Below, piece after piece: positions 2,297 to 58,192 of a stretch of 64,000 bases of DNA (within the stretch, counting starts at the first letter, position 1; every line of letters begins with the position of its first letter). The DNA comes from Halohasta salina (GTDB lineage Archaea > Halobacteriota > Halobacteria > Halobacteriales > Haloferacaceae): NCBI RefSeq assembly GCF_024178165.1, contig NZ_JAMZIE010000001.1:62001-126000 (forward strand), given 5' to 3'. The notes under the pieces are model-generated. The model did not search any database. It was not told where the DNA came from and saw only the letters and a list, made by a program, of their open reading frames with translations. Position numbers and translations under genes: made by a program.

Positions 2297-3102
2297 TCCT
2301 CGGTCTCGACCAGCCCCACGGGCGCGTCAGCCAGCGCCTGCAGGGCGTCGGCCTCGACGTGGTGGAGCTCGCCCGGAACCACCAGTAGATGGAGAGGATC
2401 GCCGAACTCGCGGTCGGCCAGTGTCGACAGCCGGTCGGCCGCTACTACCGGCTCGGGGCTCCCCGCTCGGGCGACGACCACGCCTAGTTGGTCGCCATCC
2501 CACTCGCTTGCCAGCAGCTCGGCGGCGTGGTCGGCGGTCATATACGTCTCGTGGTCGTCCGGAGCCCCCCGGCGAGGGTGGGAGTCGACTTTGATATCGA
2601 GATACACCAGCGTGTGGAGCCCCCGCGTTTGGTTGGCCTCGATCGACTCGATCACGCTCGGCGGCACGTCGCCCGCGCCGTGGACGAACGGGAACGGGAG
2701 GGTGACGGCCTTGCCGAACCGATAGTTCTGGAGGCCGGTCAGCCCGCTGGCGGCGGTTTCGGCCGTGACGCCATGGAGTACGCGCGTCTCGATCCCCCGT
2801 GTTTCCGCCCGGATCCGGAGGTCGGCGTGGGTCGTCGAGATCATCGTATCGCCGGCGGTCAGGAAGGCGACGTCCTCGGTTTCGGCGGCCGCGAGGATCG
2901 GCTCGGGATCCTGTTCGACACCCGCCCGGTCCCGAACCTCGATGTCGACCTCGTGGGCGGCTTCGAGCTCCTCGACGCTCGCCCCGAGCAGTTCGCTCGT
3001 GTAGAACTCGGCGAACGCGCGGTCGGCCTCCCGGAGGGCGGCCCGTCCCTCGCAGGTGATCGACTGGGTGTCGTAGAGGCCGAGTCCGATGAACGTAAGC
3101 AT
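2293..3102 (-). CDS. dphB: Diphthine synthase (EF-2 diphthamide biosynthesis methyltransferase)
   Basis: A 269-residue tetrapyrrole-methylase-fold protein beginning MLTFIGLGLYD, the characteristic start of archaeal DphB. It contains the FLTAGDTMIST loop and the GLTGLQNYRFGKAVTLPFPF segment (written as two motifs in this family). It uses S-adenosylmethionine to methylate the modified histidine of elongation factor 2 during diphthamide synthesis. Full length for the family. It converges with artA, their stop codons overlapping at 2293-2296. Confidence 0.95.
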   Translation of the reverse strand: MLTFIGLGLYDTQSITCEGRAALREADRAFAEFYTSELLGASVEELEAAHEVDIEVRDRAGVEQDPEPILAAAETEDVAFLTAGDTMISTTHADLRIRAETRGIETRVLHGVTAETAASGLTGLQNYRFGKAVTLPFPFVHGAGDVPPSVIESIEANQTRGLHTLVYLDIKVDSHPRRGAPDDHETYMTADHAAELLASEWDGDQLGVVVARAGSPEPVVAADRLSTLADREFGDPLHLLVVPGELHHVEADALQALADAPVGLVETED

Positions 3103-3153
3103 GCGTCGACGCAGGCGCCGACGCGGAATAACAGTGCTGAACCGCCCGCGCCG

Positions 3154-3873
3154 TCAGATAGCCGACTCGCTTTCGGGTGCCTCGACGGGGTGGTCGATCG
3201 CTTCCAGTTGCGAGACCATCTCTGCTTCGGCTTCGACGGCCTGTGGATGGAGACCGATCGACAACAGCACGTCGTCGCTCTCCCCGGCGGAGTGGGTAAA
3301 CGACAGCAGGTAGAGCCGGATCGGGATCTCGCCGTTCTGGGCGGCGTCGAACCCCGAGCCGCCGCTCTGCTGGCTCCCCGCGCCGCCGTCCGTTCCGGTG
3401 TCGAGGACGGCCGAAAACACCGGCGCGCTCCGCTCTTCGCCGAGCACCGACAGCGTGAGCTCGTCTTCCTGTTCGAGCTCCTCGATGGCGGCGTCGCCCT
3501 GCGACTGTCCTAGCCCCTCTTCGAGGACCCGCACGATGAGGTCCGCGCCGCTGAGCCGGGCCAATGGGTTCGCCGAGACGCCGGCAAACGAGACGTCGGG
3601 CGTGCTAAAGAGGAAGATCGATGACTGGCTCTCGGGGTTGTTGTAGGCTACCGACCACGTCTCGATGTCGACATCGCGTTCGACGCCGCCGACCTCGACG
3701 GTCTCGTTGATTCCCATCGCATCCGGTCCCTCGGCCTCGTAGCCTGCCTCGGCGGCGGTGGGGATCGCCGCCGGCGCGGCGGTGAACTCGAAGTTCCCGT
3801 CCTCGCCGAGACAGCCGGCCATGCCGACCGTACCGATGCCGCCAAGTAACGCCAAAACCCGTCGACGGTGCAT
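3154..3873 (-). CDS. Tat-exported lipoprotein, haloarchaeal family (DUF6517-like)
   Basis: A 239-residue protein with an N-terminal HRRRVLALLGG twin-arginine-type signal and a lipobox GMAGC giving lipidated Cys21. The rest is acidic, with no catalytic motif recognised; it resembles haloarchaeal DUF6517 proteins. The ATG at 3873 is preceded by GGTGGTGA, a near-perfect Shine-Dalgarno, which favours it over the in-frame ATG at 3894. The ribosome site lies inside an inverted repeat (see 3874-3917). A TATA-like AATTCAAATA lies at about 3926-3936. Confidence 0.8.
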   Translation of the reverse strand: MHRRRVLALLGGIGTVGMAGCLGEDGNFEFTAAPAAIPTAAEAGYEAEGPDAMGINETVEVGGVERDVDIETWSVAYNNPESQSSIFLFSTPDVSFAGVSANPLARLSGADLIVRVLEEGLGQSQGDAAIEELEQEDELTLSVLGEERSAPVFSAVLDTGTDGGAGSQQSGGSGFDAAQNGEIPIRLYLLSFTHSAGESDDVLLSIGLHPQAVEAEAEMVSQLEAIDHPVEAPESESAI

Positions 3874-6489: not shown

Positions 6490-7224
6490 ATGGAACGTCG
6501 ATCACCAGGGCTGTTGGGCGCGGTCCGCATCGACATGACGCGGCTCCACGAGACGTGGATGGAGGTCGTCTTCCCGCGCCAGCTCGATCCGGGCCACGTG
6601 CTCGGCAAGTGGAAACCGGAATCAGGCGTACAGAAGGTCGGCTACTACCTCTGGGGAGTGCTGGGGCTGCTTCCCGTGCTCGTCGGCTACCCCTTCCTGT
6701 TGGTCGGCTTCGGGACCCGGTACTACGCGGCCAAACTCGACAGCGCCGCCGCCCGCCTCGGGATCATCGGTGCGATTCTCCTGTCGGTCGTCGTCTGGGG
6801 GGCGTTGTCGGTGCTGGCCCGCTTCCAACTGTCGACCGAGGGGTTCATGGCCGTCCTCGCGGCCAGCGCCGTCGCGACGGTCGCAGCCGCGGCAGCGGTG
6901 TTTTTCGGTCGTGTCGGTGGCCGGGCGACGAGCGTGCTGTTGGCCTATCCGTCGGCGATGACCGCCCTGTTCCTCCCGCCGGTGGTCGCGGCCCTCTACG
7001 AGCCGACCCTCGGCGACATCGTCTTTCCCAACAGCGAGGAGCTGGCGATCTGGATCCTCGATACCATCCTCGTCGTCGGCGGGCTCAACGACGTGCTTCG
7101 TGACCAGTTCGCCCTCGAAGGCATCGGCTACGTCCTGATGTGGTTCGGGCTCTCGATCCCGCTGGGATGGGGCCTCGGCGTGCTGGTCGCGCTGGCGAAC
7201 CTCGTCCGCCCCAAAGACGACTAA
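6490..7224 (+). CDS. Multi-span membrane protein of unknown function
   Basis: 244 residues with about five predicted membrane helices (residues ~50-75, 88-110, 117-140, 145-168 and 210-235) between a cytosolic N-terminus with a conserved-looking HETWMEVVFPRQLDPGHVLGKW stretch (two parts) and a short charged tail. No family is recognised. A GGAG lies three bases before ATG 6490; ATG 6535 is an alternative start. It is followed after 45 bases by another small membrane protein on the same strand, so the two may be co-transcribed. Confidence 0.75.
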   Translation: MERRSPGLLGAVRIDMTRLHETWMEVVFPRQLDPGHVLGKWKPESGVQKVGYYLWGVLGLLPVLVGYPFLLVGFGTRYYAAKLDSAAARLGIIGAILLSVVVWGALSVLARFQLSTEGFMAVLAASAVATVAAAAAVFFGRVGGRATSVLLAYPSAMTALFLPPVVAALYEPTLGDIVFPNSEELAIWILDTILVVGGLNDVLRDQFALEGIGYVLMWFGLSIPLGWGLGVLVALANLVRPKDD

Positions 7225-7269
7225 CTGACGTTCCGGTGTGTTTAGGAGCCCCGAACCCCTACAATCTCT

Positions 7270-7461
7270 ATGGAGTTCAACCGGACGACGACGATCGGAC
7301 TGTTCGCTGCGGTCATCGCCATCGGAACCCTCGCGCTCATTGCCGCGCCGATGATGACCGCCCAGACGGTACTGATGATGGTGTTGCCCTCGATGGTCGT
7401 CTTCGGCCTCATAACGTTCGGTATCGGCCTCAAACACGGCCAGTATCAGGCCGCACGCTAG
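7270..7461 (+). CDS. Small two-helix membrane protein
   Basis: 63 residues forming two hydrophobic helices (about 9-28 and 33-52) with a short basic C-terminus (KHGQYQAAR). No function recognised; small haloarchaea-specific membrane proteins of this size are common. The preceding CTACAATCTCTATGG places the ATG just after an AT-rich stretch. Its stop overlaps the stop of the convergent DUF373 gene in a shared CTAG (7458-7461). Confidence 0.65.
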   Translation: MEFNRTTTIGLFAAVIAIGTLALIAAPMMTAQTVLMMVLPSMVVFGLITFGIGLKHGQYQAAR

Positions 7462-8552
7462 CGCTGTCGGTCGACTGCCGTCGGCCCGGTCCGTGCTTCG
7501 AGGAGGCCGGCGAGTCGGACACCGACGAGGCTCACGACCACGCCGGCGAGAATGTAGGCGACGAGCCGGTAGACCGGCGCGAACACCGCCGCCCCGACCA
7601 CGAGTTCGGTCTCGAAGACGTAGCCGGTAAAGCCGCGAACCACGATCCCCAGCGACAGCAGTCCAAAGGGGAGGTTGATGTACGGAGTCCGCACCGTTTC
7701 GGCGGCAATGAGTTCGTCCAGCAGCCGCCCGGTCCCCGCGGTGACCGCCGCCACTGCCAGCCATGGGCTGCTGTGGTGGACGAACGCGACGGCCGCCAGC
7801 GCCTCCGACCCGCCGACGTCCGAGACGCCGAGGACACCCACGAAGAGGCCGACGGCCGCCAGCCCGGCGGCGGCGACGTAGGTCACGACCGCGACCCGCC
7901 CGGAGTACAACAGCTCCCGACCCCACGCCGATAGCGAGCCGACCAGTTCGTCGATCCCCAACCCCTTATAGAGGATGCCGAGCCCGAGTAACGCGGCTAC
8001 CCCGCCGATGGCGACCGCCGGCGAGAACCACGCCAACAGCAGCGGGATCAACAGCAGGCCGATCCCGAGCGGGACCAACACCGTCGTTCGGAGCTCTTCG
8101 TCGGCCAGAAACTGCTTGAGCAGGTAGTAGGTCGACTCGATATCCCGTGCCTGCCGGACGACCACCCGATCGACGGCGTCGACCCGCAGCCGGCTCTCGA
8201 CGATGGGGACGACACGTTCGTCCTCGACGCTGTCGATGACGATGACGGCCTCGCTCGGCTCGTAGCGCTCGATCAGCGTCTCGATCTGTGCGGCGATGGC
8301 GCGGTCAGCGGTGATCGCCGACTCGCTGCTGCCCGACAGCACCGCGACGACGGCGTCGACGCCCTCGTCGCGGAGTTCACGTGTTACTCGCAAGGCCTCC
8401 AGCAGGCTGTTGACGCCCGTCGATTCGGGTTCGGCCAGTCCGACGTCGACGACGAGCGAGCGCACGGCTTCCCAGCCGTCGACCGGGGGGCGAACCCCGG
8501 TTTGTCGGCCGACCTCGTTGTCGCGGTCGACACAACAGACGAGCGTCGTCAC
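7458..8552 (-). CDS. DUF373 family membrane protein
   Basis: 364 residues. The N-terminal soluble half starts VTTLVCCVDRDNEVG, the hallmark of archaeal DUF373, and contains a 'VAVLSGSSESAITADRAIA' segment. The C-terminal half carries about six membrane helices. GTG 8552 gives the canonical family start; an in-frame ATG at 8567 would add MFWPA. Function is unknown; the soluble half resembles a nucleotide-binding or hydrolase-like fold only by general composition, so no activity is claimed. Confidence 0.8.
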   Translation of the reverse strand: MTTLVCCVDRDNEVGRQTGVRPPVDGWEAVRSLVVDVGLAEPESTGVNSLLEALRVTRELRDEGVDAVVAVLSGSSESAITADRAIAAQIETLIERYEPSEAVIVIDSVEDERVVPIVESRLRVDAVDRVVVRQARDIESTYYLLKQFLADEELRTTVLVPLGIGLLLIPLLLAWFSPAVAIGGVAALLGLGILYKGLGIDELVGSLSAWGRELLYSGRVAVVTYVAAAGLAAVGLFVGVLGVSDVGGSEALAAVAFVHHSSPWLAVAAVTAGTGRLLDELIAAETVRTPYINLPFGLLSLGIVVRGFTGYVFETELVVGAAVFAPVYRLVAYILAGVVVSLVGVRLAGLLEARTGPTAVDRQR

Positions 8553-8625
8553 AGCCGGCCAAAACACACCTGTCGGTAAAAACCCCGTCGGTTGGCCGGA
8601 AAAACCGCAGAAACGTTCGGTCGTC

Positions 8626-9537
8626 TTACAGCAGGCCGGTCTTCTGGAGCTTCATCAGATCCTCGGTGTCGAGGGTCTCGCCCTCTTTGAATTTCTGATA
8701 AATGTCCTCGGCTTCCTGCTTCTCCTCTTCCATCTTCTCCTGGCGCTCGTCCTTCCGCTCTTCTTCTTCCTCTTTGTCCAGTTCGCGGAGTCGCTTCTGG
8801 ACGCGGACGAAGTCCTCGTGGTGGCGGTCGGCGGCCTCTTGGGCCTCGACGAACAGCTCGTGCATCTCGTCGGCCTTATCGCGGATCTCGTCGGCCTCGC
8901 GATAGGACTCGATCATCTGGTTGTGGTGCTCTTGGGCCTTGTCGGCCAGCTCGGTCACCTTCTGGTGGTGCTGGGAGGCCTCCGAACGGACTTCCTCGGC
9001 CTCCTCGACGAGCTCGTCGAGTTCACCGGTGTCGTCGACCTTCTCCTTCTTCTCGGCGAGTTCCTCGCGTTTGGCCTCGATCTTCTCGATGAGTTCACGC
9101 TCGTCCTCGGTCGAGAGCACCTCGGTCTGCTGCTGGAACTCGAGGTCTTCGATCTCGGATTCGAGCTCTTCGATGGACTTGCCATCGTCGAGCTCGAGGT
9201 CCTCCTTCATCTCCTCGACCTTGTTGAACAGCTTGTTGGCCTCGGCGTTGAGCTCGTTGCGGCTCTCCTTGTGCTCTTGGACCTGCTCGTTGAGCTCGTC
9301 GCGTTTCTCGCGGTGCTCTTGGGCCTCGTCGACCTTCTCGCGCGTCTTAGCGTTGAGGTCGTCGCGCTTGGAAGCGCGCTCGGAGGCCATCTGGTTCAGT
9401 TCGTTTCGCCGGTCTCGAAGCTGGCCAGCGAGTTTGATCAGCTTGCCTTTCGAGCCGTTTTCGAGCCGTTCGTCCGTGAACTCGACGTTGTCCGCTTCGT
9501 CGAGCGCTGCGATGTCGTATTCGTTGACTACACTCAT
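8626..9537 (-). CDS. Coiled-coil protein (COG1340-like)
   Basis: 303 residues, almost entirely charged heptad-repeat helix from about residue 30 to 290, extremely rich in Glu, Lys, Arg and Gln, with a short conserved C-terminal EGETLDTEDLMKLQKTGLL segment. This is the widespread haloarchaeal coiled-coil protein of the COG1340 type; its role is unknown, and phosphoserine-phosphatase-like annotations of relatives come from context only. The start ATG 9537 follows GGTTTCAATT. A GGTACC and a 16-base hairpin lie within the first 60 bases upstream. Confidence 0.85.
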   Translation of the reverse strand: MSVVNEYDIAALDEADNVEFTDERLENGSKGKLIKLAGQLRDRRNELNQMASERASKRDDLNAKTREKVDEAQEHREKRDELNEQVQEHKESRNELNAEANKLFNKVEEMKEDLELDDGKSIEELESEIEDLEFQQQTEVLSTEDERELIEKIEAKREELAEKKEKVDDTGELDELVEEAEEVRSEASQHHQKVTELADKAQEHHNQMIESYREADEIRDKADEMHELFVEAQEAADRHHEDFVRVQKRLRELDKEEEEERKDERQEKMEEEKQEAEDIYQKFKEGETLDTEDLMKLQKTGLL

Positions 9538-11761: not shown

Positions 11762-12127
11762 TTACGCGAACAGTTGGTCGACCAGCAGTTCGGCCGACGC
11801 GAGGTTGGTCGCCAGCGGCACGTCGTGGACGTCACAGAGCCGCAGTAGCGCGCTGATATCGGGCTCGTGTGGCTGAGCCGTCAGTGGGTCCCGGAGGAAG
11901 ATCACCCCGTCGCAGGTTTCCTCGGCGATCTCGCCGCCGATCTGCATGTCGCCGCCCAGCGGTCCCGACTCCTTGCGCTCGATGTCGAGGTCGGTGACCT
12001 CCATCAGCCGCTTGCCGGTCGTCCCGGTGGCCATCAACTCGGCGGTCGACAGCGCCTCCTCGTGGTCGCTCGCAAACGCCATCAGATCGTCTTTCTTCTT
12101 GTCGTGGGCAATCAGTGCGAGTCGCAT
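11762..12127 (-). CDS. mgsA: Methylglyoxal synthase
   Basis: 121 residues, a compact MgsA domain: [11 protein letters not shown] phosphate-binding start, TGTTG loop, catalytic Asp60 in [11 protein letters not shown], and [12 protein letters not shown]. It converts dihydroxyacetone phosphate to methylglyoxal plus phosphate. MgsA is scarce in archaea but present in many haloarchaea, where it bypasses lower glycolysis when phosphate is short or is used in C3 metabolism. An aldo/keto reductase follows upstream on the same strand (stop 59 bases before) and might reduce the toxic product. A GGTGACAGTCACC palindrome lies upstream of the TATA. Confidence 0.93.
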
Positions 12128-12168
12128 TCGTTCCCCCGTCGGTCCCCCGCTCGCTTAATACTCCTGTT

Positions 12169-12181
12169 GGTGACAGTCACC
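12169..12181. promoter_or_regulatory. 13-base palindrome upstream of mgsA
   Basis: GGTGACAGTCACC is a perfect palindrome around a central A, placed ~10 bases upstream of an AGTATTAAG TATA-like element (about 12152-12160) that lies 25-33 bases before the mgsA ATG. The site shares the TGACAGT core with repeats at 3874-3917 and 46213-46239. Confidence 0.5.
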
Positions 12182-12186
12182 GGGGG

Positions 12187-13275
12187 CTACTCGAACACCG
12201 TGTCGAACGCCGTCGCCCCCAGCGGGTCGAACGTTCCCGCAGCGACGTTCTCGGCGACGTGGTCGACCGACCGCATGCCGACCAGCGACGTGGTGACGCC
12301 GGGGGCGCTCCGGGCGAAGTTGATCGCCCGCTGGGCTGCGGTGTCGCCCGACAGTTCCGCGTCGACCGCGGGCGGGATCGCCGCCGCGAGATCACCCTGT
12401 CCGATCGAGGCGCTGGTGACGACCGACAGTCCCGACTCGTGGGCGTATTCGAGCGTGCTCACCGGCCCCTCGTCGGTCGGCTGCGATTTGACGGTGAACG
12501 CGTCGGCCATCTCGACGTTGAACGGGAGTTGGAGCGCCTGTAGGCCGTGATTGTCGACGCCGACAGTCTCGGCGGCCGCCACCGCACGGTCGAGCACCGC
12601 CGGCAGCGAGAGGTACTGTTCGTGGCCTTGGGGCACCCGAAACGCTTGCCACGTCGCTAGCCCGTAGCCGCCGATTTCGCCGGCCGCTCGGCGGCGTTCT
12701 AACAGTTCGAAGGCGGTCTTTAATTGTTCGTAGACGGCCTCACGGTCGTTTTCGAGCAGTTGTGTCTCGGGATTATGAAGGTAATAACAATCAATCCGGT
12801 CGACACCGAGGTTCGAGAGCGACCGGTCGACCATCGCGTCGACGAAGCCCGGCGAAAGCGAGTGGCTCCCCTGGACTAACGATTCGGGGTCGACTATCCC
12901 CGGTTCGACGAACTGCTCGCGGATGTACCGGCCGGGGTCTTCGGGTCGCTCGCCGTCGAACGGCAGAAACCCGCCCTTCGTCGAGACGACGACGGACTCC
13001 CGGTCGACGTCTGCCCGCCGGAGGGCTTCGCCGACGGCGCGCTCGCTACGCTGACACCGGTAGTTGATCGCGGTGTCGACGTGGTTGATCCCGTGTTCGA
13101 GCGCCGTTTCGACGGCCGCGACGTACTGGGCGTCGACCGTGTCGGTCGGCTCGCCGAGGTAGGTGCCGATGCCGACCGACGAACAGACGCCCGGTGGGAA
13201 GCGCCGGAAGTAGGTACGGCCGAAGCTGTCGCCGAACCGGTCGCGGTAGGCCCACGTGCCGTCTGCGGTTGCCAT
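12187..13275 (-). CDS. Aldo/keto reductase, aryl-alcohol dehydrogenase-like subfamily
   Basis: 362 residues with the AKR catalytic set: Asp67 and Tyr72 in HVDTAINYRC, Lys100 in VVSTKGGF, His in YYLHNPE. It is longer than the AKR at 5550-6383, with a C-terminal SLVGMRSVDHVAENV cofactor segment. Substrate unknown. Its position 59 bases upstream of mgsA on the same strand suggests, but does not prove, a part in methylglyoxal or other aldehyde reduction. The GTG-free start at ATG 13275 has a TTTATTCGAG AT-rich element about 20-30 bases upstream. Confidence 0.88.
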   Translation of the reverse strand: MATADGTWAYRDRFGDSFGRTYFRRFPPGVCSSVGIGTYLGEPTDTVDAQYVAAVETALEHGINHVDTAINYRCQRSERAVGEALRRADVDRESVVVSTKGGFLPFDGERPEDPGRYIREQFVEPGIVDPESLVQGSHSLSPGFVDAMVDRSLSNLGVDRIDCYYLHNPETQLLENDREAVYEQLKTAFELLERRRAAGEIGGYGLATWQAFRVPQGHEQYLSLPAVLDRAVAAAETVGVDNHGLQALQLPFNVEMADAFTVKSQPTDEGPVSTLEYAHESGLSVVTSASIGQGDLAAAIPPAVDAELSGDTAAQRAINFARSAPGVTTSLVGMRSVDHVAENVAAGTFDPLGATAFDTVFE

Positions 13276-21972: not shown

Positions 21973-22098
21973 GCGACCGGCTATGTGTCGGGGATACAAA
22001 ACAGTATGTCAGACAGTCACCGGTTGGAAACAATTCGGGGGGTATTCGGTCGCCGACCGGATCGAAAACGTTAGGCGGACCGCACCGAACCTACTAGT

Positions 22099-22383
22099 AT
22101 GGCAGACGACGACGAGGCCGACGCGGAGCCGACTGTCCAGCTCGGCGACGGACGGGCCGTCGACGGCGCGCCGGTCGCCCGGATCGCCGCCCGGCTCACG
22201 TGGCCACAGACGAAAAGCGACATCCTCACCAAGGTCGGCGAGACGGAGATCCGAACGCCGGACGGCCCCCAGCGGCTCGACGAACTCCTCGAACCGGTCG
22301 AGACTACCTACTACGACCGCCGACAGACGTTCGTCGAGGCGGTCTTCGAGGAGATCGGCCACGAACCGGTCGCCACCGAGTAA
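22099..22383 (+). CDS. DUF5789-like small haloarchaeal protein
   Basis: 94 residues: an acidic N-terminus, then VARIAARLTWPQTKSDIL, IRTPDGPQRLDELL and TTYYDRRQTFVEAV, matching the pattern of haloarchaeal DUF5789, a small protein of unknown function. Start ATG 22099 follows CTACTAGT. A DUF302 gene begins 48 bases downstream on the same strand, so the two probably share a transcript ended by the hairpin at 22893-22914. Confidence 0.8.
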   Translation: MADDDEADAEPTVQLGDGRAVDGAPVARIAARLTWPQTKSDILTKVGETEIRTPDGPQRLDELLEPVETTYYDRRQTFVEAVFEEIGHEPVATE

Positions 22384-33993: not shown

Positions 33994-35100
33994 TCACCTC
34001 GCCTCGAAGTAGTCGGCCAGCCGTTCGGCGGCCTCGGTCACCCGCGGCGTGACGAGCGCAAACCGGAGCCACTCCTCGCGCGCATTCCCGAACGTAGAGC
34101 CCGGCATCCCCGCGACCCCGGCCTCGTCGACCAGCGTCTTGACGTTCTGCATCGTGCCGGGGAAGCCATCGAACCGCGCCAGCACGTAAAACGCCCCGTC
34201 GGGAGTGGTGTACTCGGCTCCGGCCTCGTCGAGCGCCGCGGTGAAGGCCTCAACGCGCTCGGTGAGTCGCTCGCGTGCCTCCCGGTAGTAGTCGGGGCCT
34301 GTTTCGCGGTAGGCGGTGTATACCGCCTGCTGGGCGGGTCTGCTCCCGGTCACATTGACCAGCATGTGTCGGGTTTTGGCCGCCTCGACGAGGTGTGGTG
34401 GGAAGATCGCGTACCCCACACGGAAGCCGGTGATCGCCATCGACTTCGAGACGCCGCTGGTGACGATCACGTTGTCCGCATCCAGAGTGAGCGCGCTCTC
34501 GAAGTGGCCCGAGAAATCGAAGTGGTCGTAGACCTCGTCGACGACGACCAGCGCGTCGTGGTCGGCGGCCGTCTCGACGACCGCCCGGACCGACTCGATG
34601 TCGTACACCGCACCGGTGGGGTTGTTCGGCGTGTTGAGGACGACGAGCGCGGTGTCGTCGGTGATCGCCTCGCAGGTGGCCTCGACATCGAGGCTACCGT
34701 CGCGGGCCGCGTCGACGAGTCGCGTCTCGCCGTCGAGCATCGACACCTTGCCGGGATAGTAGGGGTAGACGGGGTCAATCAGGACGGCCTCGTCGCCGGC
34801 CTCGCGGTCGAGCGCGCGGGCCATCCCGAGGTAGTTGGCCTCGCCGGTGCCGTTGGTGACGATCACCCGGTCGGGGTCGACGTTGCGGCGCTGGGCGATC
34901 TCCTCCCGAAGCGGCGTCAGACCGTCACTCGGGGGATACTGGAACTCATCGGCGTCGGCGGTGGCGTACGCACTGAGTCCGTCGCGGATGGCTTCCGGCG
35001 GCTCCCAGTCGGGGTTGCCGCTGACCATGTCGATCACGTCACCGTCGGCCGCCGCGGCATACTGCATCACGTGGAAGAACTGCGGCGTCTCGTAGTTCAT
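33994..35100 (-). CDS. PLP-dependent class I/II aminotransferase
   Basis: 368 residues. NTPNNPTGAV, VVDEVYDHF and the Schiff-base lysine motif GVSKSMAITGFRVGYA identify an aspartate/aromatic-type aminotransferase. The amino-acid substrate is not determinable. ATG 35100 (MNYETPQFFHVM) is full length. It is 45 bases upstream of the Get3-like gene on the same strand in the sense that the latter is transcribed away; they are not obviously an operon. Confidence 0.88.
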   Translation of the reverse strand: MNYETPQFFHVMQYAAAADGDVIDMVSGNPDWEPPEAIRDGLSAYATADADEFQYPPSDGLTPLREEIAQRRNVDPDRVIVTNGTGEANYLGMARALDREAGDEAVLIDPVYPYYPGKVSMLDGETRLVDAARDGSLDVEATCEAITDDTALVVLNTPNNPTGAVYDIESVRAVVETAADHDALVVVDEVYDHFDFSGHFESALTLDADNVIVTSGVSKSMAITGFRVGYAIFPPHLVEAAKTRHMLVNVTGSRPAQQAVYTAYRETGPDYYREARERLTERVEAFTAALDEAGAEYTTPDGAFYVLARFDGFPGTMQNVKTLVDEAGVAGMPGSTFGNAREEWLRFALVTPRVTEAAERLADYFEAR

Positions 35101-51119: not shown

Positions 51120-51566
51120 TCATGGAGCCGCCGTCGACGTCTCGCCGGACTCCGATTCGAACGGCAGCGAGATCACGAGTTCGTCAAACCAGACGACCGG
51201 CCGCTTGCTCTGACCCTCCTCCTCGAAGAGGATAATTCCCAATTGGGCGAGTCGATTCAGTTCCTCGTAGACGTTTTTCACATCGCGGTCGACCACCCGT
51301 GCGGCCGCGTTGATACTCGCCGGCTCCTCGCGGCGGATCGCCTCGATGAGATCCAGGACACGCGGCGTCAGCGTCGCCAAGAGATCATCGTAGCTGGTGA
51401 ACGACAGCGTCGGCGTGCTGTCGGCTGGCTCGCCAGCGTCGAGCGTCGTGATCGCCTCGGTCACCTCGTCGTCGAATCCGGTGGCTGAGTTCACGGTCAC
51501 GACGAGCGTCGACGCGGCTCGAAGCTGTTCGCGTTCCATCGGGTGTAGTGGTGGGGTGTCGGTCAT
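51120..51566 (-). CDS. HVO_A0114-family DNA-binding protein (antitoxin of TumE pair)
   Basis: 148 residues. An N-terminal TLVVTVNSATGFDDEV strand-rich part precedes a winged helix (about 70-130): DLIEAIRREEPASINAAARVVDRDVKNVYEELNRLAQLGII (pieces). It fits the HVO_A0114-type family that accompanies TumE toxins. An AGGAGA Shine-Dalgarno sits in the 14-base gap after the toxin stop, so the pair is an operon. By analogy it should neutralise the toxin and repress the shared promoter. Confidence 0.82.
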   Translation of the reverse strand: MTDTPPLHPMEREQLRAASTLVVTVNSATGFDDEVTEAITTLDAGEPADSTPTLSFTSYDDLLATLTPRVLDLIEAIRREEPASINAAARVVDRDVKNVYEELNRLAQLGIILFEEEGQSKRPVVWFDELVISLPFESESGETSTAAP

Positions 51567-51580
51567 GGGTTTCTCCTGTG

Positions 51581-51919
51581 TTAGTCGAGTTCGAACTCGG
51601 GTTTCGGGATCTCGCTCCAGAACCGATTCCAGAGCGCAACCATGCCGGGGAACTCGATGCTCTCCGGTTCGGGGTCCGGCGCGACATGGCGTTCGTGGCC
51701 CTTCGTATCGGCGTGTGAATTGTCATAGCGCCGGATCGTGCCATCCTCCAGTGTGCGAGGCGGGTCCGGCTCCGTCGCGCCGTAGTGGAGCTTGTAGGCC
51801 CAGCCTGACCGATAGGTGTTCTGCTCAGTTCTGAGACAGAATACCCGAACGACAGTGCCATCCGGGTATTTTTGCCCCATACTCACACCATCGAGTTCGG
51901 CATCGGTCGGAGAGCCCAT
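51581..51919 (-). CDS. TumE-family (DUF6516-like) toxin
   Basis: 112 residues, full length: YPDGTVVRVFCLRTEQNTYRSGWAYKLHYG, RRYDNSHADTKGHERHVAP (in pieces) and the C-terminal MVALWNRFWSEI match the toxin-antitoxin TumE family. Catalytic mechanism is not established. It precedes the antitoxin gene, an inverted toxin-first order. The ATG lies seven bases from the first of two operator-like inverted repeats (51926-51976). Confidence 0.8.
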   Translation of the reverse strand: MGSPTDAELDGVSMGQKYPDGTVVRVFCLRTEQNTYRSGWAYKLHYGATEPDPPRTLEDGTIRRYDNSHADTKGHERHVAPDPEPESIEFPGMVALWNRFWSEIPKPEFELD

Positions 51920-52445: not shown

Positions 52446-54446
52446 ATGACCGGAACACGGCCGTCTCGCGTGCTCGTGATCACAGCCGGGACCGCCGACC
52501 CGGTGGACGGGCTCGAAGCCGACGCCGACCTCGCCGTGACGCTGATGCCTTGCGGTGACGAACTCGGTTCGGGGCTCGCCGACACCGACTGCGTCGTCGC
52601 CGTTCACGGCGAGGGTGTCGACGCGGTCGATGTCCTGAAACGAGTCCGTGGGTTCGATCCCGACCTCCCGGTCGTGGTCGTCGCCGACGACCTCACCGTT
52701 GCGAGCGACGCCGTCGCTGCCGGGGTCTCGGAGTTCGTCCCCGCCGGGAGCCCCGACGCCGCCGACCGGCTCTACGGACGAGTGTCGGCAGCGCTGGCTC
52801 CGTCGTCGCCCGCTCGCCCAGACGAGGCCGAGGGGATGCCCATCGAAGCACTCGGCGCCGAGGAGGAGCTCCGACTCAAGGAGCGAGCCATCGACGAAGC
52901 GCCGGTCGGCATCACCATCGTCGACGCCGACCAGCCCGACGAGCCGATGATCTACATCAACGACGCCTTCGAGCGACTGACGGGGTACGCCAAGGAGCGC
53001 GCCGTCGGGCTGAACTGCCGGTTCCTGCAGGGCGAGGGGTCGGATCCCGAGGCCGTCGACGAGTTGCGGGCCGCCGTCGACGCGGGCGAGTCGGCCTCCG
53101 TCGAGCTGCTGAACTACCGGCAGAACGACGAGCCGTTCTGGAACCGCGTCGACATCGCCCCGGTTCACGACGCCGACGGCGAGGTCTCGCACTTCGTCGG
53201 GTTTCAGACGGATATCACCGAACGGGTGGAGGCCGAGATGCAGCTCGAACGGGAACGGACGGACCTCCAACACCTGTTGCGCCGGATCGACGGCCTGCTA
53301 CGGAACGTCACTGAGGAACTCGTAGAGGCACAATCCCGGTCGAACGTCGAGGCGGCCGTCTGCCAACAGGTCGCCGCCGCCGAGACCTACGACTTCGCGT
53401 GGATCGGCGTGCCGGATCGCGCCATCGACAGTCTCGTGGCGACGGCTGCGGCTGGCGAGTGGGACGTCTCGAAGGCCGACCTCGAAATCGACCTCACAGC
53501 CGTGGACGTGATGCCCGCCGCCTCGGCCTATCAGACGGGTGAACCACGAGTCGTCACCGATCCGTCGACGCTGTCGGCTGTCGCGTCGGCGTCCCCGTGG
53601 GTGGATGCCGCCGACCTCGGGGGGATCGCCGCCATTCCGCTCGTCTACGGGGAGACGACCTACGGCGTCCTGTCGGTGTGTACGATCGAAGCAGCAACGC
53701 TCAACGACTACGAGCGGACCGTCCTTGGGGCGATCGGTCGCGCCGCGGCGACGGCGATCAACGCCCTCGAACGCGGTCGACTCATCGCCAGCGACAGCGT
53801 GACGCGGATCGAAATCAGCTCCCGAGACAGGGGGTTGTTCTTCGTCGACCTCTCAGTGCTGACGGGCGCGTCGCTGACCTACAACGGCGCAGTGTACCGC
53901 GACGACGGCAGCGTCCTGCTGTTTTTCGAATCCGACGCCACTGCCGAGGCAATCATCGAGGCCGCCGACTACCCCCATATCGTCTCGGTCGAGGCACTCT
54001 CCGAGTACGACGGCGAGACGCTGTTCGAGTTCGTTGTCACCGACGACTCGCTGCCGGGGGCCCTCGCCGAGCGGGGCGTCCGGATCGACGCGATCAGCGT
54101 CGACGACGGCGTCGCCAGTCTCGACCTCGAACTCCCCACCGAAGGCGACGTCCGGGCGATCATCGAACTCCTCAAAGAGCGGTATCCGGAGACGGAGATC
54201 CTCTCTCAGCGGCGGGTCGAACAGCCGCCGTCGACACGACGTGCCTTCGTCGGCGAAATAAAAACCCGCCTGACGGAGCGCCAACTGACCGCGCTCCGGA
54301 AGGCCCACGTCAGCGGGTTCTACGAGTGGAACCGCTCCGTCACCGGCGACACCCTCGCCGAGTCGATGGACATCGGCCGGGCGACCTACCACCAGCATCT
54401 CCGGGCGGCCGAACGAAAGCTCGTCGACGCGTTCTTCGAGCAGTGA
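52446..54446 (+). CDS. bat: Bat-like bacterio-opsin activator with LOV/PAS, GAF and HTH-10 domains
   Basis: 666 residues. Residues 1-115 resemble a receiver domain without the usual phospho-site; 145-262 are a PAS domain of LOV type with GLNCRFLQG (Cys191), Asn223, Asn233 and Gln254, the flavin-binding set; about 315-455 is a GAF domain; 605-666 is the HTH-10 domain LTERQLTALRKAHVSGFYEW and beyond. Bat activates the bacterio-opsin gene; an upstream-activating-site-like palindrome lies before bop 3.7 kb away. The stop abuts that of the convergent crtY. Confidence 0.88.
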   Translation: MTGTRPSRVLVITAGTADPVDGLEADADLAVTLMPCGDELGSGLADTDCVVAVHGEGVDAVDVLKRVRGFDPDLPVVVVADDLTVASDAVAAGVSEFVPAGSPDAADRLYGRVSAALAPSSPARPDEAEGMPIEALGAEEELRLKERAIDEAPVGITIVDADQPDEPMIYINDAFERLTGYAKERAVGLNCRFLQGEGSDPEAVDELRAAVDAGESASVELLNYRQNDEPFWNRVDIAPVHDADGEVSHFVGFQTDITERVEAEMQLERERTDLQHLLRRIDGLLRNVTEELVEAQSRSNVEAAVCQQVAAAETYDFAWIGVPDRAIDSLVATAAAGEWDVSKADLEIDLTAVDVMPAASAYQTGEPRVVTDPSTLSAVASASPWVDAADLGGIAAIPLVYGETTYGVLSVCTIEAATLNDYERTVLGAIGRAAATAINALERGRLIASDSVTRIEISSRDRGLFFVDLSVLTGASLTYNGAVYRDDGSVLLFFESDATAEAIIEAADYPHIVSVEALSEYDGETLFEFVVTDDSLPGALAERGVRIDAISVDDGVASLDLELPTEGDVRAIIELLKERYPETEILSQRRVEQPPSTRRAFVGEIKTRLTERQLTALRKAHVSGFYEWNRSVTGDTLAESMDIGRATYHQHLRAAERKLVDAFFEQ

Positions 54447-55268
54447 TCACACCGCGGCTTTTCGAGCGGGGGCCGCCGTCCAGTGGTCGACGACCCACCG
54501 GAATAGCACCAACCCCTGCACGACGAAGAGGTTGGTGACGACGAAGAACAGCGCTTCCTCGACCGGGAGGCCGAACAGGTCGACGCCAGTCGTGTAGACG
54601 GGCGAGATGTGCCAGATGCCGGTCGCGATCGCGATGCGGTCGATGACCCAGAGATACAGCGTCGGCACGGTAACTCCGAGGGCGACCGTGCGGCGCTGAT
54701 ACACCAACTGCGGGAGGCCGACGACCCACTGGATGGCGAAGACGGGAGCGGCCCACGCGAGGATCGCCCCGAGGTAGAACGTCCGGTCGGTGCCCAGCAG
54801 CAGGACGCCAACGAGGCCGATCCCGACGGCGAGGGCACCGCCGAGGAGTCGCGGCAGCAGTCGGAGCCGCTCACGATCGAGTCGACGGGTGCCGTCCGCC
54901 CAGTCGAGCAGTCCCGTTTCGGGCCACCCGCGGCGGAGCGTCAGTTGGCCGAGCCACAGCGCGGTCAGGATCGGCTGGAGCAGGAAGAAGACGTACTCGC
55001 CGACCGGTGCGAGGCCGATGTGGGCAAACGTCTGGCCCTCGCCGTACCCCCAGACGCCGTGGGCGATGAGGTAGTTGTCCCACGGCGTCGTGTAGACGAC
55101 GGCGATCAGCGTGATCGCAGCGACCCCGGTCCAGTAGACCGGTTTCCCGACGGTCCACACCGTCGGTCTGGTCGTCCGGGTCCGCATCACCGTCGCCACG
55201 GCCAACAGCCCCACGACGACCGGTATCAGGAACGCGAAATGGAACTGGAAGTACGTCGGCCCGCTCAT
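54447..55268 (-). CDS. crtY: Lycopene beta-cyclase (fused CrtYc-CrtYd type)
   Basis: 273 residues, about seven membrane helices. Two tandem lycopene-cyclase domains: the first contains TTPWDNYLIAHGVWGYG and GEYVFFLLQPIL, the second LWVIDRIAIATGIWHI and PVEEALFFVVTNLFV. It makes beta-carotene from lycopene, the precursor of retinal. Its place between bat and bop supports supply of chromophore to the opsin. No 15,15'-dioxygenase (brp/blh) gene is in the window. Confidence 0.93.
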   Translation of the reverse strand: MSGPTYFQFHFAFLIPVVVGLLAVATVMRTRTTRPTVWTVGKPVYWTGVAAITLIAVVYTTPWDNYLIAHGVWGYGEGQTFAHIGLAPVGEYVFFLLQPILTALWLGQLTLRRGWPETGLLDWADGTRRLDRERLRLLPRLLGGALAVGIGLVGVLLLGTDRTFYLGAILAWAAPVFAIQWVVGLPQLVYQRRTVALGVTVPTLYLWVIDRIAIATGIWHISPVYTTGVDLFGLPVEEALFFVVTNLFVVQGLVLFRWVVDHWTAAPARKAAV

Positions 55269-55392: not shown

Positions 55393-56160
55393 TTAGTCGG
55401 CGGTGCCTGCGGCGCTCCCGACGGCCGCTCCGGCGGCGTCGAGGACCTCACGGCTCGACAGCAGGATAATACCGAAGCCGACCTTCGCGACGAGGTCCAA
55501 CACCATGAACCCGGCCGTCTCGGTGTAGAGGCTGACCGCGCCGAGGCCCTCAGTGCCGAGGAGCCACCACACCGGGTAGACCAGCCAGACGAACACGATC
55601 AGGTTTCGCAACGTGCTGAACGTCGACTGGGCCTCAGCCGAGAGCTTGCGTGCTTCGTCGGCCAGCTCGCCGTACAGGAAGTACAGCAGCACCACCAGCA
55701 GGCCGGTGGAGACGCCCCACCAGATGAGGCGGTTGCCGACCGGGCCGAGGAACGCGGCGCTCGTCGACAGCGTAGCAACCGCGCCGGTGCCGATCATCAG
55801 CACGTCGAGGCCGACGAGCGTGTAGATCGTGTTTCGGCTGGCCCCCGCCAGTAGCGCGAGGTCCAACAGAAGCAACGGCGTCGTGAACAGCCAGTCGGTG
55901 TACCGCGCCCAGTAGATGGGCACTGCTTCACCCCCGAGTTGGACCGTCGTCAACCCGAAGCCGAGCGCCATCGCGAGATAGTTCACGAACGCAATGGCCG
56001 TGATGAATATCGTCACGATGTAGAACTCCTGTCGGCGTCTGTCCGTCTCGCCCCATCCGCGGGCGATGAAGTACAGCATCCCGAGGAGCATTCCTATGGT
56101 CCCGAGCCATAGCCACAATTGTTCGCCACCTGGACTTACCATTGTACCTGGATCCGTCAT
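55393..56160 (-). CDS. bop: Bacteriorhodopsin (light-driven proton pump)
   Basis: 255 residues, seven helices. Helix C reads [18 protein letters not shown]: Arg86, Asp89, Thr93 and Asp100 correspond to R82, D85, T89 and D96 of Halobacterium bacteriorhodopsin, so it should pump protons. Lys226 (DLVAKVGFG) is the retinal lysine, Asp222 its counter-ion partner, Glu204 and Glu214 the release pair. Position 88 is Thr where Halobacterium has Ala84. The TATA-like GGTTATACAC lies ~28-36 bases before ATG 56160 and a 22-base palindrome just upstream. Confidence 0.96.
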
Positions 56161-56198: not shown

Positions 56199-56220
56199 AC
56201 TACCATACTAGTATGGTAGT
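56199..56220. promoter_or_regulatory. Bat UAS-like 22-base perfect palindrome in the bop promoter
   Basis: The 22 bases are a perfect palindrome around CTAG and contain ACCATACTAGTATGG, which differs at one defined position from the reported Bat upstream activating consensus ACC-n2-ACTAGTT-n-GG. It sits 39-60 bases before the bop ATG, just upstream of the TATA, as in Halobacterium. Confidence 0.8.
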
Positions 56221-58024: not shown

Positions 58025-58192
58025 ATGACCGAGACAACGATCCCGGAAGAAAACGCACCGAAGTGTGCGGTCTGTAGCGATCGCGTCGTCGACTACCCCA
58101 CCAATCGCGTCGTCGCAACCGCGACCGACGACGGCGATGTCGAGTACAAACTCTTCTGTGGCCCGAGCTGCGAGTCGTCCTACCACACGTAG
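58025..58192 (+). CDS. Small zinc-finger protein
   Basis: 55 residues with CAVCSDRV and LFCGPSCESSYH, a Cys-x2-Cys plus Cys-x3-Cys arrangement likely to bind zinc. Small haloarchaeal zinc proteins of this kind are abundant and some act in regulation; none is proven here. ATG 58025 chosen; an ATG 21 bases upstream is possible. lpdA follows 90 bases on. Confidence 0.75.
   Translation: MTETTIPEENAPKCAVCSDRVVDYPTNRVVATATDDGDVEYKLFCGPSCESSYHT

Follow-up and report, generated by a model that had tools for sequence, protein, structure and literature searches.

The opsin regulator Bat of Halohasta salina, encoded beside a proton-pump opsin gene (bop), carries an apparently complete LOV domain that includes the photo-reactive cysteine. 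The best reading of its sequence is that Bat is a one-component photoreceptor transcription factor that would place bop under blue-light control, to which we give a probability of roughly two in three. Because its Bat carries such a domain, the cell may switch its pump on by direct light sensing. All window coordinates below refer to a 64,000-nucleotide stretch of the H. salina contig NZ_JAMZIE010000001.1.

Light sensing by Bat has been suggested but not definitively established (PMC4682037, Yee 2015), and both Bats discussed in that report and in Losi 2014 (PMC4844311), those of Halobacterium salinarum and Halorubrum hochstenium, lack the reactive cysteine. The idea of Bat as a light sensor and the existence of haloarchaeal LOV-HTH proteins are already known (PMC4682037, PMC4844311), as is flavin binding by a Pro-variant Bat-LOV (PMC4682037). 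New relative to the open-access literature are a bop-linked Bat with the cysteine, the frequency of this version and its correspondence with opsin type, as well as the probable derivation of the Cys-less state. With a Bat encoded beside bop that has a complete complement of LOV residues, light sensing by Bat can be tested directly.

The Bat protein and its LOV domain

The bat reading frame is intact, running on the forward strand from the ATG at 52446 to the stop codon at 54446 and encoding a Bat-type regulator of 666 residues with receiver-like, LOV, GAF, BAT and HTH_10 domains. Residues 1-119 (52446-52802) form a receiver-like (beta-alpha)5 domain, recognized from the secondary structure of the model and a weak FixJ match at residues 46-130; judged by eye, its DCVVAVHG strand apparently lacks the phospho-acceptor Asp, as in a degenerate receiver. 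The LOV domain, residues 153-259 (52902-53222), was identified by a PAS_9 match (2.2e-21), by LOV matches in the PDB and by its fold. A long predicted helix, residues 258-294 (53217-53327), in the model likely a signal-transmitting coiled coil, connects it to the GAF domain at residues 302-438 (53349-53759; GAF_2, 6.8e-11). The BAT domain (GAF and HTH_10 associated; PF15915, 3.1e-39) occupies residues 450-601 (53793-54248) and the HTH_10 DNA-binding domain (PF04967, 2.6e-18) residues 609-660 (54270-54425). GAF, BAT and HTH_10 all scored above the curated Pfam cut-offs, in agreement with the sequence-only reading of this DNA, which had claimed an HTH-10 output domain and implied a GAF domain. 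The whole-protein model had a mean pLDDT of 80.5 and a pTM of 0.38, and because of the latter value its domain arrangement was not trusted.

The translation reads GLNCRFLQG at residues 188-196 (53007-53033), with Cys191 encoded by TGC at 53016-53018, and contains the flavin contacts Asn223 (53112-53114) and Asn233 (53142-53144) as well as Gln254 (53205-53207), the signal-relaying Gln of LOV domains, exactly as claimed earlier. Arg192 and Arg208 are also present, which completes the flavin-contact set of Asn, Asn, Gln and Arg. In a comparison with PDB sequences, the LOV stretch matched LOV domains at up to 3e-35, and the best 60 matches listed were overwhelmingly LOV domains or blue-light receptors. 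Foldseek placed the predicted fold on 3t50 at 1.4 A over 111 columns, with nearly all of the top 50 places taken by LOV photoreceptors; model residues 186-193 were of low confidence. High NCBIfam scores were obtained with YtvA and LOV histidine kinases, as partial matches below the whole-protein cut-offs, and NifL was matched too. The LOV assignment is thus confirmed far beyond chance. The earlier claim of an intact photosensor is well supported at the level of sequence and fold, and is strengthened by the conservation of the cysteine in Bats beside pumps of the window type, by the use of two different codons for it and by the lack of the three flavin-quenching aromatics (see below); the blue-light control that it predicted stays a prediction.

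Several characterized proteins resemble the window Bat in part. In the bacterial LOV-HTH protein EL222, whose LOV domain was among the PDB matches, LOV drives an HTH output, as it would in the window Bat, but receiver, GAF and BAT domains are absent. The HTH of EL222 is of the LuxR type. ALovD-1 of Lake Diamante is an archaeal LOV domain that also bears the cysteine and photocycles at high salt; it was characterized as a LOV domain and not reported as a bop regulator (PMC12202551). About 30% of halobacterial LOV proteins carry an HTH, one arrangement being Bat-like, and these archaeal proteins share with the window Bat a Cys-bearing LOV fused to an HTH; in the available part of that article they are not linked to opsin loci, opsin type or a promoter palindrome (Losi 2014, PMC4844311).

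Closest are two Bats from other haloarchaea. Bat of H. salinarum has the same LOV/PAS, GAF, BAT and HTH_10 architecture and the same linkage to bop, but differs in that the reactive cysteine is absent (PMC4844311); two Halobacterium-like genomes (G018 and G023) had GANHRFLQG at the LOV site. The H. salinarum protein switches bop on under light and at low oxygen (PMC3184054), and Bat, Brz and Brb are needed in that organism (Tarasov et al.). Bat-LOV* of H. hochstenium belongs to the same family and shares receiver, LOV, GAF and HTH with the window Bat; it has Pro at the Cys site together with the quenching residues Tyr163, Trp172 and Tyr247 (PMC4682037), whereas the window Bat has Cys191 and none of the three flavin-quenching aromatics, with Glu166, Phe175 and Phe250 instead.

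The opsin locus and its palindrome

A lycopene cyclase gene (54447-55268, reverse strand; TIGR03462, 7.8e-39) is convergent with bat, the two ends abutting, and presumably supplies carotene for retinal. A brp identity for this gene was rejected, as NCBIfam TIGR03462 is lycopene cyclase. It lies within the 946-bp gap between bat and bop (55393-56160, reverse strand). The bop product is a proton-pump opsin of the HmBRII/cruxrhodopsin type with the proton-pump residues Arg-Asp-Thr-Asp, and its best PDB matches were 4pxk, which we take to be HmBRII, and cruxrhodopsin-3 (4jr8). The PDB listing names 4pxk bacteriorhodopsin. In many distant species, bat likewise adjoins bop. No Brz-like zinc finger was found adjoining bop. 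A 55-residue cysteine-rich CxxC protein (DUF7576) is encoded at 58025-58192 on the forward strand, 1.9 kb from bop; in size it is reminiscent of Brz, the zinc-finger regulator of H. salinarum. Just upstream of bat, at 51120-51919 on the reverse strand, two adjacent small genes match the TumE toxin (PF20126) and an HVO_A0114-type HTH (PF25212), likely a toxin-antitoxin pair to judge from these matches.

A perfect palindrome of 22 bp, ACTACCATACTAGTATGGTAGT, lies upstream of bop at 56199-56220, with a 16-bp core that begins 57 bp before the start codon. The core occurs once in the 3.04-Mb genome. When the 150 bp upstream of bop were shuffled 500 times with composition preserved, no shuffle reached the score of the palindrome. 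Because this motif is itself based on the window site, that site is no independent test of it; the recurrence of the core at one distance upstream of other haloarchaeal opsins is such a test. Of 154 opsin upstream regions, some of them related in sequence, 85 had a weighted core match at p<=0.02 by composition shuffles, and the matches listed were mostly at -52 to -60 from the start codon. Thus, the bop palindrome noted earlier is real, and its position is conserved across haloarchaea. We presume that it is the Bat-binding upstream activator of bop.

Exact matches to ACCNNACYRGTNNGGT number three in the genome: one upstream of bop, one at -57 upstream of a halorhodopsin gene on contig C24, and one intragenic. 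In the window, a degenerate UAS pattern with three mismatches was found 31 times versus 30 expected and was discounted; because it is at chance level, we rely solely on the exact palindrome and on the constancy of its position. A palindrome-like match at 34607 was discounted as intragenic. Upstream of bat, the UAS had a weak match at -82 (p 0.028), and upstream of the lycopene cyclase gene none was found. Apart from the bop site, the genome has a single sequence close to the exact core, an imperfect copy, AACCTACTAGTATGGC, at 22088-22103, which overlaps the start of a 94-residue reading frame at 22099.

The LOV site across the Bat family

A class-wide search of 391 haloarchaeal genomes gave Bat-like matches in 385 of them and an opsin of the bop family in 193. 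The LOV site was read in named loci, in 100 opsin-centred regions and in loci recovered with a Pro-type Bat as the query. Among 161 distinct Bats, the site was Cys in 121, Pro in 31, His in 5, and Leu and Tyr in 1 each, and 2 had no LOV domain, of which one is merely split between frames, leaving one real case. The split Bat, from Halarchaeum acidiphilum (L117, 7065-9553), appears as a LOV reading frame and a BAT-HTH reading frame, that is, a frameshift or a sequencing error. The Cys codon was TGC in 70 sequences and TGT in 49, so that it is the residue rather than the codon that is preserved.

Pairing with opsins was counted for Bats that have an opsin of assigned type no more than 5 kb away, the types being anchored by PDB matches. 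All 69 Bats beside HmBRII/cruxrhodopsin-type pumps had Cys. This opsin type is over-represented in the census because bop of the window served as the query for the opsin regions; the Pro-type set was gathered irrespective of opsin. The other Cys-type Bats were beside halorhodopsin (9) or an archaerhodopsin-like opsin (1). Pro-type Bats accompanied archaerhodopsin (7) or halorhodopsin (10), all three typed His-Bats accompanied Halobacterium-type bacteriorhodopsin, and the LOV-less Bat a halorhodopsin. A strict rule by which opsin type sets the LOV residue was rejected, as the Bats linked to halorhodopsin include Cys (9), Pro (10) and LOV-less (1) forms.

The pocket around the site also differed. 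All 31 Pro-type Bats had Trp where the window Bat has Phe175, together with Leu at 235, whereas Cys-type Bats had Phe or Tyr at 175, never Trp, and mostly Val at 235. Because the Pro-types are one clade, this Trp/Leu pocket counts as one event and not as repeated coevolution. Many Halorubrum Pro-types had Tyr at 166 as well, and their pocket appears to reproduce Y163/W172/P188/Y247 of H. hochstenium with an offset of 3.

We built a tree of 160 Bats from the GAF-BAT-HTH part, excluding the LOV columns. The LOV-site state required five changes on this tree, the minimum possible. The Pro clade, which includes the LOV-less Bat of H. salina, was nested within a Cys-bearing group with SH-like support of 94-100, and adding four HTH_10 outgroups in a second tree gave 98-99; the His clade was nested beside Cys sequences (94-100). 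The root is not firm, because one outgroup row fell inside the Bat tree and deep branches were weakly supported. Given this nesting of Cys-less types among Cys-bearing Bats, the simplest reading is that the cysteine was lost at least three times (Pro, His/Leu and Tyr) and that Cys-less Bats are probably derived. Yee 2015 raises the question of whether LOV proteins were ancestrally redox sensors devoid of the cysteine (PMC4682037). The window Bat is relevant to whether the absence of Cys from LOV domains is a primitive or a derived state, and derivation, if true, argues against the Cys-less Bat as a model of an ancestral LOV redox sensor, a use that a published discussion had suggested.

How might the cysteine act in the window Bat? 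Under blue-light control, the LOV domain would most likely bind FMN or FAD, and blue light would form a covalent adduct between the flavin and Cys191. Gln254 and the long linker helix would relay the signal to the GAF-BAT-HTH_10 half of the protein, and this half would bind the palindrome about 57 bp upstream of bop and presumably raise transcription of the pump, with the GAF domain probably adding an oxygen or redox signal. Against a light sensor, the Pro, His and LOV-less members of the family presumably work as regulators too. Furthermore, bop of H. salinarum is light-inducible with a Bat that is Cys-less (PMC4844311, PMC3184054). Control by light is therefore possible in the absence of an adduct, and a light response of bop alone is not proof of LOV photochemistry.

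We consider it unlikely that the domain is instead a flavin redox or oxygen sensor in which Cys191 mainly tunes reduction and light has a weak effect, exerted by photoreducing the flavin to the semiquinone or hydroquinone. The Pro-type Bat-LOV of H. hochstenium binds flavin and undergoes a change of shape when reduced, in its P188C mutant photoreduction proceeds to the hydroquinone, and Tyr163, Trp172 and Tyr247 had to be mutated for efficient photoreduction (PMC4682037). Bat drives bop at low oxygen (PMC3184054), and NifL, matched by the window LOV domain, is a flavin redox sensor. However, the Cys-type pocket differs from that of the Pro clade, with its Trp and Leu in 31 of 31, which makes P188C a poor proxy for Cys-Bats, and a dispensable cysteine would not be expected to persist in 121 of 161 sequences.

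Quite improbable, in our view, is a photoactive LOV domain whose output affects protein stability or targets other than bop, with bop following oxygen through GAF. The window Bat does have a GAF domain, and H. salinarum Bat controls several genes (PMC1885257), but bat lies beside bop in distant species and the palindrome upstream of the opsin is conserved. That the motif is a fossil in a domain that no longer binds flavin is highly improbable: the LOV domain was lost altogether in one Bat of the same genome, but here the flavin contacts are all intact and the Cys was kept despite synonymous codon variation.

Three Bat-opsin pairs in one genome

The family includes Cys, His, Pro and LOV-less versions, three of which are found in the H. 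salina genome, each paired with an opsin. The window pair combines the Cys-Bat with bop of the HmBRII/cruxrhodopsin type. On contig C19 (L298), a His-Bat with GVNHRFLQG (6658-8988) is accompanied by two opsins (3032-3853 and 11860-12639), one closest to H. salinarum bacteriorhodopsin and the second unclassified. On contig C24 (L297), a LOV-less Bat of 427 residues (6552-7832, reverse strand) is divergent from the halorhodopsin gene (7918-8754, forward strand), which has its own palindrome 57 bp upstream of the start codon.

One tentative interpretation, which we hold to be somewhat less than an even bet, is that Bat carries interchangeable sensor versions: Cys for blue light by HmBRII/cruxrhodopsin-type pumps, His or Pro for redox (or weak light) by Halobacterium-type bacteriorhodopsin, archaerhodopsin and halorhodopsin, and a version without LOV, the Cys-less forms being derived. 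Several versions could then coexist in a cell, each opsin receiving a different input.

A lycopene cyclase-like gene is also found near the His-Bat on C19. In all, the genome contains five canonical LOV motifs. At C11:367040-368944 (L005, L313), a canonical GXNCRFLQG motif is apparently joined to an HTH_10 domain, the two matches being about 1.9 kb apart in an open frame of 1052 residues.
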